A stretch of DNA of 64,000 nucleotides, from contig CAMUZG010000007.1 of the NCBI GenBank assembly GCA_947165145.1, positions 1 through 64,000 of the forward strand. The letters are read 5' to 3'. Shown here in pieces: positions 40,784 through 43,849 of this stretch; the first letter of the stretch is position 1; each line of letters opens with the position of its first letter. The notes under the pieces are model-generated. The model was not told the DNA's origin. It did not search any database and worked only from the letters and a program-made list of their open reading frames with translations. The DNA comes from an uncultured Selenomonadales bacterium. GTDB lineage: Bacteria; Bacillota; Negativicutes; Selenomonadales; Selenomonadaceae. The position numbers were made by a program, and so were the translations under genes.

Positions 40784-41341
40784 TTACTTGCCGCCGTAAA
40801 CACTGCGTTTCAAAATGCCGAGGTAGGGCAAGTTGCGATAATGTTGCGCGAAATCGAGACCGTAGCCGACGATAAATTCATCGGGCACTTCAAAGCCGCA
40901 GTAATCAATCGGAACGTCGACTTTGCGGCGACTGGGCTTGTTAAGCAGTGTGCAGACTTTGACGCTATTTGCCTTCTTGTCCATGAAATAATCAATCAGA
41001 TAGCTCATCGTCGTGCCGGAGTCGATAATGTCTTCCACGAGCAAAATATCGCGACCTTTGGGGTCGTTGTCGAGATTTTTGAGAATATTGACTTTGCCGC
41101 CGGTGTAAGAGTTTGCGTCGTAGCTTGAGGCGATGAGAAAGTCGAATTGCACGGGAATGGTCAGTCGCCGCACAACGTCAGTGTAAAACATGACTGCGCC
41201 GTTGAGAATGCCGACCGTTAAAAGCGGTTTTGCGATGTCTTTGTAATCCTCGCTGATTTGCGCACTGAGCTCCTTGGCGCGGGCGGCGATCTCCTCCTCG
41301 GTGTACAGTACGCGTTCGATGTAATCTTCCTTGCTTTTCAT
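40784..41341 (-). CDS. hpt: Hypoxanthine phosphoribosyltransferase
   Basis: A 185-residue purine-salvage enzyme that makes IMP (and usually GMP) from PRPP. The PRPP-binding motif LLVEDIIDSGTTMSYL is near residue 100. The upstream GILNGAVMFYTDVVRR and the C-terminal VGYGLDFAQHYRNLPYLG are conserved. The ATG at 41341 follows AAGGG; the ORF-track TTG three codons earlier is less likely. In many Firmicutes it lies between tilS and ftsH, as here. Confidence 0.95.
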   Translation of the reverse strand: MKSKEDYIERVLYTEEEIAARAKELSAQISEDYKDIAKPLLTVGILNGAVMFYTDVVRRLTIPVQFDFLIASSYDANSYTGGKVNILKNLDNDPKGRDILLVEDIIDSGTTMSYLIDYFMDKKANSVKVCTLLNKPSRRKVDVPIDYCGFEVPDEFIVGYGLDFAQHYRNLPYLGILKRSVYGGK

Positions 41342-41390
41342 GACAATCAACCCTTTCCGTTAAAATTTTGCGTTATGAAAAGTATTTTTT

Positions 41391-41568
41391 GATCTACTTT
41401 TCTTTGCGCGCACAAAGAAAAGTAGCAAAAGAAAGTGCGCCTCGCGGGGGCGTCCAAGTCCAAACGATTCCAACGTTAAGACTACCCGCAAGTCATAGTT
41501 CCGGCAAAACGTCCTTTCCGTGGACGTGTTGCCGGCGGCCGTCATCCATGACGGCCTCAAATTCCCGC
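41391..41568. repeat. Three-hairpin interspersed repeat, copy 1
   Basis: The element starts with GATCTACTTTT and a long palindrome (CTACTTTTCTTTG/CAAAGAAAAGTAG). It continues through AGTGCGCCTCGCGGGGGCG and ends with two further hairpins, GCAAAACGTCC/GGACGTGTTGC and GGCCGTCA/TGACGGCC. It lies between tilS and hpt. An antisense ORF (41360-41560) merely reads through it. Copy 2 at 43456 is nearly identical. Confidence 0.85.
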
Positions 41569-41575
41569 AATGTTT

Positions 41576-42505
41576 TTAGCGACTCGATATGTTTTGCGTG
41601 ATGAAAAGTCTTCCGTGTTTCAAATTGGCGCGAAGGTTTTTCGGCAACTCGACGCCAGATAAATTGTTGAGCAGAACTTTGCGGACGCCTTCAAAGTGCA
41701 CGAAGCCGAAATCTTTGATTGAGCCGACGACTTGCACTAAAAATTTTTTAATGACGGCGCGTTGAATTGCGGTGTGCAACTTCAAAAATTCTGCGCGGAC
41801 GATTGTGTTGTCGCGAACGACGGTTGGGAAAATTTTTTCGGTTTGCGCGTCGATGAAGTCTGATTCTTCCGCCGCGACTTCGCCCAATCTGCAAAGCGTC
41901 TCAACAAGTGCGGGATTGAATTTTTCCAGCGTCGGGGCGAGTTCCAAGCGGATTTTGTTGCGTGTGGCGTCGAGTTCAAAGTTGGTTGTGTCCAATCGCG
42001 GAGATAAATTTCGTGCGCGACAAAATTTTTCAAGCTCAACTTTTCTGAACGGCAACAGCGGGCGAATCAGCAAGCCGTATTGCGTCGATGTGCGCGATTT
42101 GATTGCCGATAAGCCTGTTGATGTCGCGCCGCGCAGAATTCGCATTAAAATCGTTTCCGCCTGGTCGTCCGCGTGATGAGCAGTGGCAATCGCGTCGCAA
42201 TTCAGTTCGTGTCGCACGTTGCTCAAAAAATTGTAGCGCAGAATTCGTGCGGCAGTCTCGACGGAAATTTTTTCGTCCGCCGCGAATTTGCGAACGTCAC
42301 CGTTGCCAACGACAATTTCAACGTTGCGTGATTCGGCGAAGGCTTTGACAAAATCTGCGTCGTCGATTGAAGTTTGTCCACGCAAACCGTGTTCAAAATG
42401 AGCGATTGCGACTTCAAGTCCGAAACGTTGCCGCACGTTGATTAAAAGTTCCGCAAGGGCAAGAGAGTCCGCGCCGCCCGATACCGCAATCAACACCTTG
42501 CTCAC
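41576..42505 (-). CDS. tilS: tRNA(Ile)-lysidine synthetase
   Basis: TilS modifies C34 of the tRNA reading AUA to lysidine, using ATP. The PP-loop SGGADSLAL is near residue 9, followed by AHFEHGLRG and HHADDQAETILMR. At 309 residues it is shorter than the usual 400-470, lacking much of the C-terminal region. The annotated GTG start has no ribosome binding site. The frame stays open for 17 more codons upstream, beginning with CTG (42556) behind AGGGGGTG. The extra residues (FKKFIDI...) resemble the normal TilS N-terminal helix, so the true start may be a non-standard CTG or ATT. Confidence 0.9.
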   Translation of the reverse strand: MSKVLIAVSGGADSLALAELLINVRQRFGLEVAIAHFEHGLRGQTSIDDADFVKAFAESRNVEIVVGNGDVRKFAADEKISVETAARILRYNFLSNVRHELNCDAIATAHHADDQAETILMRILRGATSTGLSAIKSRTSTQYGLLIRPLLPFRKVELEKFCRARNLSPRLDTTNFELDATRNKIRLELAPTLEKFNPALVETLCRLGEVAAEESDFIDAQTEKIFPTVVRDNTIVRAEFLKLHTAIQRAVIKKFLVQVVGSIKDFGFVHFEGVRKVLLNNLSGVELPKNLRANLKHGRLFITQNISSR

Positions 42506-42556
42506 GCCGTCAAAAATGTTTGAGCCCGCGCAGATGTCAATGAACTTTTTAAACAG

Positions 42557-42592
42557 TTAAAAAGCACCCCCTGCCGCAGAAAGTGCAAGGGG
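42557..42592 (-). terminator. Possible terminator/attenuator before tilS
   Basis: On the minus strand CCCCTTGC ... GCAGGGG followed by TTTTT. The 3' arm doubles as the Shine-Dalgarno-like AGGGGGTG for the candidate CTG start of tilS, so the structure could both end upstream transcripts and control tilS. Confidence 0.5.
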
Positions 42593-42595
42593 CAG

Positions 42596-43015
42596 TCAAT
42601 CCGAACGACGCGAACCGCGACCGCCGCGTTTGGAATCGGTTTTTCGTTTGAGGTCGGTCAATCGCTCGTCGCTGTCTTTGAGGAACTTAGACAACTTGTC
42701 TTCAAATGAAGCTGACAGTTGCCTTTGCGGGCGGCGAAAGTCTCCGCGTCGATTTGGTTTTGGTGATTGATTTTCGCTTTCGACGGGCTTGGGTTTGGCT
42801 TGTTTCAAAGACAGCGCGATTTTGTTGCCGTCGATGTTGACGATTTTGACTTGAACTTTGTCGCCCTCGTTCAAGAAATCGTGCACGTCGTTGACATAAA
42901 CGTCAGCGACTTCGGAGATGTGAATCAATCCGACTTTGCCTTCCTCAAGCTCCACGAAAGCACCGAAATTGGCGATTCGCGTAACTTTGCCTTCCACAAT
43001 GCTACCTGCTTCCAT
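42596..43015 (-). CDS. S1-domain RNA-binding protein, YabR-like
   Basis: A 139-residue protein with one S1 domain (GSIVEGKVTRIANFGAFVEL, GLIHISEVAD, GDKVQVKIVNID; residues 5-75) and a basic Arg/Lys-rich tail. It matches the small S1 proteins (B. subtilis YabR) encoded next to divIC. A role in translation or RNA stability is inferred. The gene lies 39 bp downstream of divIC on the same strand, and tilS follows. Confidence 0.9.
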   Translation of the reverse strand: MEAGSIVEGKVTRIANFGAFVELEEGKVGLIHISEVADVYVNDVHDFLNEGDKVQVKIVNIDGNKIALSLKQAKPKPVESENQSPKPNRRGDFRRPQRQLSASFEDKLSKFLKDSDERLTDLKRKTDSKRGGRGSRRSD

Positions 43016-43054
43016 TGCCTAAATACGTCCTCCCGAAAAATTTTTTGTTGCGTC

Positions 43055-43333
43055 TCAGGGTCGCGCGGCTTGATAGGGCATTTCGCCTTCTTTGGTGAAT
43101 CCTAAATCTTCACGCGCCAGACGCTCAATGTTTTTGATGTCCTGCAGTTCGGCGAGTTCCTTGCGCAATTTTTCGTTCATCGCCTTTGCCTTTTCCAGTC
43201 TTTTGTCGGCAATTCGTTGGCTTTCATTAACGTGAGCAAGGTGCACCTGTTGAGAGATCAAAACCGTTGAGAAGTAAGCGATCATCGCGAACATCACCAA
43301 CGCAAACCAGTTAAAATTTTTTCTTTTCCGCAT
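43055..43333 (-). CDS. divIC: Septum formation initiator, DivIC/FtsB-like
   Basis: A 92-residue bitopic protein. A short basic cytoplasmic start (MRKRKNF), one membrane helix (WFALVMFAMIAYFSTVLI) and an extracytoplasmic coiled coil (about residues 30-75) are typical of DivIC/FtsB, which bridges early and late divisome proteins. The segment IERLAREDLGFTKEGE is the family's conserved end. The ATG follows GGAGGCGGCGCA. The neighbours (S1 gene, tilS, hpt, ftsH) support the identification. Confidence 0.9.
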   Translation of the reverse strand: MRKRKNFNWFALVMFAMIAYFSTVLISQQVHLAHVNESQRIADKRLEKAKAMNEKLRKELAELQDIKNIERLAREDLGFTKEGEMPYQAARP

Positions 43334-43455
43334 TGCGCCGCCTCCTCAGCTTTTGCATATAATAGCAGTTAGTTTTATCTTTCGCAAGGTTTAATGGGGA
43401 TGAGGTGTGGGGTGCCTCGCGTTCGCGGCGTTCAATTAACCTTAAGTATTTGTTT

Positions 43456-43637
43456 GATCTACTTTTTCTTTGCGCGCACAAAGAAAAAGTAGCAAAAAGA
43501 AAGTGCGCCTCGCGGGGGCGTTCAAGTCGTAACTGTTCCAACGTTAAGACTAACCGTAAGTCGTGGTTCCGGCAAAACGTCCTTTCCGTGGACGTGTTGC
43601 CGGAGGCCGTCATCCTTGACGGCCTCTACTTCCTGCG
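43456..43637. repeat. Three-hairpin interspersed repeat, copy 2
   Basis: Almost the same sequence as copy 1 (41391), with a 14-bp perfect arm (CTACTTTTTCTTTG/CAAAGAAAAAGTAG) followed by the two other hairpins. It lies in the 516-bp gap between divIC and the giant gene. The two copies bracket tilS-S1-divIC in the same orientation. Confidence 0.85.
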
Positions 43638-43736: not shown

Positions 43737-43784
43737 ATAAAAAAAAATCTGCCGCTCATGTCGAGTGACAGACTTTTTTTCAAT
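43737..43784 (-). terminator. Terminator of the giant gene
   Basis: A stem of TCTGCCGCTC / GAGTGACAGA with A- and T-runs on both sides. On the minus strand it ends the giant gene about 70 bp after its stop. Its core resembles the terminators at 18724 and 19626. Confidence 0.75.
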
Positions 43785-43847
43785 TAGGAATTAGGAATTA
43801 GGAATTAGAAATTATTAATTCCACATTCCACATTCCTAATTTCAAAT
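43781..43847. repeat. Heptamer-type intergenic repeat
   Basis: Tandem AATTAGGAATTAGGAATTAG units, then inverted ATTCCACATTCCACATTCC units, lie between the giant gene's stop codon and its terminator. Confidence 0.7.
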
Positions 43848-43849
43848 TG

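Follow-up and report, generated by a model that had tools for sequence, protein, structure and literature searches.

The window, which is the entire stretch of 64,000 nucleotides that was analysed, contains two similar segments on either side of a cluster including tilS and divIC, raising the question of whether these are a local duplication, a structured RNA or members of a dispersed family of mobile DNA. All local genes (the giant ORF, divIC, an S1-domain protein, tilS, hpt and ftsH) are transcribed leftward, and the two segments, designated copies A and B, are located among them as follows:

40784-41350, minus strand: hpt, neighbour of copy A
41391-41558, plus strand: copy A, conserved core running from GATC to GGCCTC, between tilS and hpt; the operon sense is the opposite strand
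41576-42505, minus strand: tilS, neighbour of copy A
43055-43333, minus strand: divIC, neighbour of copy B
43456-43626, plus strand: copy B, conserved core, flanked by divIC and the giant ORF (3' end)
43850-63931, minus strand: giant ORF, with its 3' end toward copy B

Copies A and B are direct repeats approximately 2,065 nt apart, sharing 90.7 % identity over 193 nt in a local alignment. Each incorporates a perfect palindrome, with arms of 13 bp (copy A) or 14 bp (copy B), as well as a GC-rich core (CCTCGCGGGGGCG) and two more hairpins, the third of the set having 8-10 bp. Compared with shuffled sequences, the predicted folding of copy B gave z = -7.2 as plus strand RNA, -5.9 as minus strand RNA and -7.8 as DNA, and that of copy A z = -7.5 as DNA. 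No plausible gene could be distinguished in either copy, with only small overlapping ORFs extending across copy B. Alignment and folding thus bear out a preceding sequence-only reading, which had described direct repeats at 41391 and 43456 with a palindrome of up to 14 bp per arm and a GC-rich core; its claims of intergenic placement and of the lack of a plausible ORF likewise hold for both window copies.

Two further features occur alongside copy B. An inverted tandem-like repeat, AATTAGGAATTAGG... / ...CCTAATTTC, is found between this copy and the giant ORF (43781-43849), and short TTCCTAATTCC or CTAGGAACTAGG tracts are present in the intergenic gaps of many relatives (e.g. L171, L174 and L266-L271); tracts of this type constitute a second intergenic repeat family. 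The giant ORF itself (minus strand) is a single frame of 6,693 codons, with numerous repeats within its translation and an RTX-like C-terminal part rich in glycine and aspartate, and it probably encodes a giant protein that is secreted or located at the surface.

A search of the genome from which the window derives (1.94 Mb assembly, 82.8 % complete) yielded approximately thirty-six copies at E<1e-5, about fifteen of which are 83-91 % identical over nearly the full length. The A/B pair is not special among these, since the nearest relative of copy A is not copy B but a locus elsewhere in the genome (L007; 94 %). Matches were furthermore obtained in 22/61 sampled genomes, all of the same genus, often to the first 65 nt alone. 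The earlier proposal of an interspersed, non-coding and apparently mobile family is upheld by the copies in this genome, the many in relatives and the orthologous empty sites described below, and the outcome that would have contradicted it, a total of two copies only, did not occur.

The three hairpins described previously are present, but they describe the element incompletely, as its head also contains a mirror-repeat third strand and a pairing of the palindrome loop with a tract downstream:

41394-41406, plus strand: copy A palindrome 5' arm CTACTTTTCTTTG (sequence and fold)
41408-41412, plus strand: copy A loop tract GCGCA, pairing with 41436-41440 (covariation)
41413-41425, plus strand: copy A palindrome 3' arm CAAAGAAAAGTAG (sequence and fold)
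41426-41434, plus strand: copy A mirror-image purine run CAAAAGAAA, candidate third strand (mirror covariation)
41436-41440, plus strand: copy A TGCGC, partner of the loop tract (covariation)
43459-43472, plus strand: copy B palindrome 5' arm CTACTTTTTCTTTG (sequence and fold)
43474-43478, plus strand: copy B loop tract GCGCA, pairing with 43504-43508 (loop-downstream complementarity)
43479-43492, plus strand: copy B palindrome 3' arm CAAAGAAAAAGTAG (sequence and fold)
43493-43502, plus strand: copy B mirror-image purine run CAAAAAGAAA, candidate third strand (mirror covariation)
43504-43508, plus strand: copy B TGCGC, partner of the loop tract (loop-downstream complementarity)

The head strand follows the scheme CTACTTTT(T)CTTTG - loop - CAAAGAAAA(A)GTAG - C - AAAA(A)GAAA - tract, in which the 3' arm recurs as its mirror image in the second purine run. 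The length of this run tracks that of the foot-side run in 50/50 genus copies (at most 38 under permutation, with a mean of 28.5), and among copies with differing runs, forty-nine fit a mirror and none a direct repeat. These mirror statistics cover the BLAST-found genus copies, the pattern-found loci being left out because the search pattern itself fixes the third strand. On sequence grounds, the mirror run is the signature of a putative purine-motif intrastrand triplex. The last four loop bases are complementary to the tract behind the purine run in 107/150 heads (shuffled mean 19, maximum 33), and the covariation score of loop pairing and stem, determined on two gap-free alignments and including GC/AT/CG exchanges, exceeded those of all 500 shuffles and all slid controls. 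We infer that the head forms either a DNA triplex or an RNA pseudoknot, and any preference between these two is itself inferential. In several copies of genome G015 (L208-L219), part of a second head arm is present upstream (CTACTTTTTCTTTGCAGTTTTCTTCTACTTTTTCTTTG), which suggests that heads were inserted in tandem or nested.

A generic head pattern was detected in 54/381 genomes of the class, belonging to 5/102 genera in one family, with up to thirty-eight matches to one head variant in a single genome, and a backwards-read control pattern gave zero matches in the same 381 genomes. In a wider scan, the generic head was present in at least Pseudomonadota, Bacteroidota, desulfobacterial lineages and Bacillota; the matches listed include Xanthomonas, Dyella, Lysobacter, Methylomonas, Aeromonas, Polaromonas, Acidovorax, Burkholderia, Leeuwenhoekiella, Flavivirga, Chitinophaga, Bacteroidales, Desulfobacterales and Selenomonadaceae. 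E. coli gave no match when compared with the head of Aeromonas. Carriage by phages or plasmids was rejected on the rarity of matches, with the head found in 13/72,556 plasmid records, several of the thirteen exceeding 1 Mb and chromosome-like, and in seven stretches of viral contigs across two scans. This near-absence is odd for so wide a range, so that the head may be shared across phyla either by common descent or by convergence. Two Microviridae genomes from pig faeces (L040 and L041, ~601-647, after VP4) contain a hairpin that shares the mirror-image purine run (GTACTTTTTCTT...AAGAAAAAGTACCAAAAAGAA); this hairpin was set aside as a family member as it shows no obvious loop pairing. Selenomonas-type loci (L066, L087, L103, L112 and L151) represent a shorter subfamily in sense orientation, which starts 11-15 nt after the upstream gene, a far tighter placement than at the other loci.

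Comparison of orthologous sites provides evidence of insertion. In twenty-nine relatives tilS and hpt are adjoined without a head, mostly across a gap of 3-25 nt and in some across 34-120 nt of unrelated sequence; the gap is 229 nt, with the element, in the window genome only. Four further empty sites, located using chimeric queries of flanking protein ends, correspond to minC/minD (L008), the L014 gene pair, pfkA with its adjacent gene (L015) and the tRNA-argS region (L016). The filled and empty sites together indicate that the element entered operons as a block of ~200-220 bp. Loci L004 and L005 have 100 % identical cores (173 nt) within different flanks, which indicates recent copying or gene conversion, and the point of their divergence marks sharp core ends at TTGATC and GGCCTCAA. 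The core thus measures ~170 bp, or ~215 bp including less conserved AT-rich edges; these edges, with weak CGTTG/CAACG ends, appear to be part of the element, their consensus being drawn from the same data. Only TTGA/TCAA at the core ends and the weak edge motif were found when terminal inverted repeats were sought in the element copies, neither of them long or convincing, and no target-site duplication was seen at the five empty sites compared.

Behind the head, the predicted hairpins of the two window copies are as follows:

41501-41535, plus strand: copy A second hairpin with loop TTTCCGT, complementary-strand loop ACGGAAA (predicted fold)
41537-41556, plus strand: copy A third hairpin GGCCGTCATCCATGACGGCC, complementary-strand loop CATGGATG (predicted fold)
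43569-43603, plus strand: copy B second hairpin CCGGCAAAACGTCCTTTCCGTGGACGTGTTGCCGG (predicted fold)
43603-43626, plus strand: copy B third hairpin GAGGCCGTCATCCTTGACGGCCTC, complementary-strand loop CAAGGATG, corresponding to the CsrA SELEX core CARGGAUG (fold and motif)

TCC-type loops follow the head in 62/72 genus cases and 86/164 elsewhere, with GGA loops in one and twelve, respectively. Among 125 distinct TCC hairpins, the stems contain no G.T and one A.C mismatch, in a scan biased by its demand for mostly perfect stems, and the mismatches in the loop pairing are symmetrical (five G.T and five A.C). As selection on RNA only should leave one-strand wobbles, their near-absence points to a constraint on the hairpins at the DNA rather than the RNA level, to the extent that a scan favouring perfect stems allows.

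The element is probably a non-autonomous, non-coding, dispersed mobile DNA that inserts between genes and is conserved as a one-strand fold recognised by an enzyme. Direct support comes from the number of copies, from empty sites at orthologous positions, from the sharp core ends of one identical pair, from an orientation that is mixed outside the window genome and from conserved foldability, in which changes are compensated. The conserved feature would be the fold of a single DNA strand, comprising the palindrome stem, a mirror-image purine strand able to form a purine-motif intrastrand triplex, the loop paired downstream and then the perfect hairpins. When exposed, such a strand could fold and be recognised by some host or transposon enzyme, and the element may be copied or moved via this folded strand. 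Against this reading stand the missing target-site duplication, convincing terminal inverted repeat and autonomous partner; a transposase with matching ends, as proposed earlier, was looked for and not found, nor was there a clear recurrent neighbouring gene family, most of the recurring frames overlapping the element and appearing spurious. Near-absence from plasmids and phages, the bias of the wobble test towards near-perfect stems and the possibility that gene conversion produced the L004/L005 identity also count against it, as does the orientation bias in the window genome (21:2), which random insertion alone does not explain.

Orientation was scored using gene calls from a simple script, and the counts are approximate. 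In 26/30 copies of the window genome, the head points toward the start of a gene transcribed divergently, and between codirectional genes the ratio is 20-21:2, with the GGA strand in the operon sense. Codirectional pairs in the genus number 46:26 overall, with 3:8 (reversed) in genome G010 and 10:6 in G015, and those in other phyla 34:29. The strong strand bias (21:2; L001-L030) is thus restricted to the window genome, with none or the reverse in relatives, and is possibly linked to replication.

A tentative but credible reading, which can be compatible with mobility and is retained as a rival or an addition to it, considers the transcript of the opposite strand. Its hairpins, with C-A-N-GGA-U-G loops, would be predicted CsrA/RsmA sites, and the copies may act as a CsrA sponge or control flanking mRNAs. 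The motif A(N)GGA occurs on the complementary strand of 72/88 genus hairpins, as opposed to two on the element strand; around GGA, position -3 is C in 62/64 and -2 is A in 60/75, and the next base is T, C or A, followed by G in 64/75. The CsrA consensus derived by SELEX in E. coli, RUACARGGAUGU, lies mostly in hairpin loops of six bases, and the CsrB repeats read CAGGA(U/A/C)G (PMC7652899; PMC6692469). Copy B matches CARGGAUG in its complementary-strand loop and contains GTCAAGGATGAC. The csrA gene is present in 53/60 genus genomes, including that of the window (G000:C21:13270-13428, E 7e-24). Across seventy-two head-bearing genomes, the motif is found in 32/45 csrA+ and 2/27 csrA- genomes (Fisher p=9e-8, kinship ignored), and a head-strand control motif shows no such association (7/45 and 2/27). 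The codirectional bias of the window genome also agrees with this reading, as it places the GGA strand in the operon sense; however, orientation is even at other TCC-type loci (20:17) and reversed in G010. The csrA association is furthermore confounded and involves few independent clades, csrA+ genomes being mostly Gammaproteobacteria and Selenomonadaceae and csrA- genomes mostly Bacteroidota, Betaproteobacteria and desulfobacterial lineages, and some absences of csrA from draft genomes are possibly false. The stems also lack G.U wobbles, and their length of 8-10 bp exceeds that of most SELEX hairpins. As in the CsrB/RsmZ family, several A(N)GGA-loop hairpins are present per unit on one strand (PMC7652899), in a genome that also carries csrA, but the element is a dispersed repeat rather than one sRNA gene, and its head and mirror repeat have no counterpart in that family. 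A combined scenario, in which a cross-phylum mobile family with a pseudoknotted triplex head carries opposite-strand CsrA/RsmA sites in csrA+ lineages, seeds the transcripts of dozens of operons and is able to rewire or buffer the Csr/Rsm regulon, must be regarded as somewhat doubtful.

The REP-like affiliation suggested by the sequence-only reading, in which a Y1 (RAYT) tyrosine transposase would move an element of REP/REPIN or IS200/IS605 type, is unlikely. REP/BIME and REPIN sequences (GTAG and CGTC super-families) are similarly short, palindromic, intergenic, high-copy and found in several phyla, and CGTC repeats likewise occur without a transposase (PMC3733652). The element differs in being longer and composite, and its variable foot (GTAG, GTAAC, GTCAC, GTTGC or GTACC) is not accompanied by a conserved, unpaired GTAG, GGAG or CGTC tag outside the stem. 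A RAYT-like gene does lie ~300-700 nt from the head in Methylomonas (L069, L100 and L111), but this represents a single orthologous locus, and no PF01797 match was obtained in the draft genomes of the window organism and six high-copy relatives (G005, G010, G015, G020, G021 and G029). Y1/RAYT/IS200 enzymes, the best-known candidates for moving the element, appear not to be needed for it in this genus.

A sense-strand structured RNA on the head strand, of riboswitch-like or 3' UTR type with an H-type pseudoknot, is very unlikely. The loop-downstream pairing does have H-type pseudoknot topology with an A-rich third loop, and it covaries, but orientation relative to genes varies, the head running against the genes in the window genome, wobble asymmetry is lacking and a scan of Rfam covariance models gave no relevant match up to E=1. 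The plain form of this proposal was dropped because the bias of the window genome was not reproduced in its relatives or in other phyla. Finally, simple segmental duplication of one intergenic region, which two copies 2 kb apart might have implied, is refuted by the thirty-six or so dispersed copies.

MITE-like and ERIC/BOX-like repeats are non-coding, foldable sequences of 100-250 bp between genes. The element shares their size, foldability, intergenic insertion and lack of coding capacity, and as in MITEs dispersed copies are accompanied by empty orthologous sites, but no clear terminal inverted repeats or target duplications were seen, and it maintains a strand-specific architecture across phyla. 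The PIT/TM_ECO elements are intrastrand triplex motifs of unknown function (Hoyne and Maher; Holder et al. 2015, PMC4666352), TM_ECO being a G/C-rich sequence of about 37 nt, CCCTCNCCC-N3-6-GGGNGAGGG-N3-GGGNGAGGG (PMC4666352). Both these and the present element combine a pyrimidine arm, a purine arm and a mirror-image purine run in one strand with short loops, and both are intergenic, multicopy, free of strand bias and located off mobile elements (PMC4666352). Py-Pu-Pu blocks with a mirror third strand occur in all fifty genus copies; unlike TM_ECO, all copies have A-rich arms (YACTTTTCTTTG), the loop is paired to a tract that follows the triplex, and TCC-loop hairpins come next, the element falling only within the wider class of such motifs. 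A TM_ECO-like, G/C-rich tract (CCCTCTCCCC...GGGGAGAAGG...GGGGTGAGGGG) is situated 3' of and close to an A-rich head in Frateuria (L128). PIT/TM_ECO is thus closest in structure and the REP/MITE/ERIC-type repeats are closest in behaviour, and the element is best read as similar in type to the PIT/TM_ECO triplex motifs and to REP/MITE repeats, and as a member of none of those tested. Literature searches using the letters of the head and the spurious peptide FAKEKVTKRK returned no paper describing it.

Bacterial interspersed repeats with triplex potential have been recognised since around 2000, and to our knowledge no function has been assigned to them. The present family offers three handles by which this question may become testable: a specific fold, defined by the covarying loop pairing and mirror strand; precise empty sites, which show insertion; and hairpin loops which fit the CsrA consensus and whose occurrence among genomes is associated with csrA. 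Should the link with CsrA hold, a mobile repeat would represent a source of new post-transcriptional regulatory sites.
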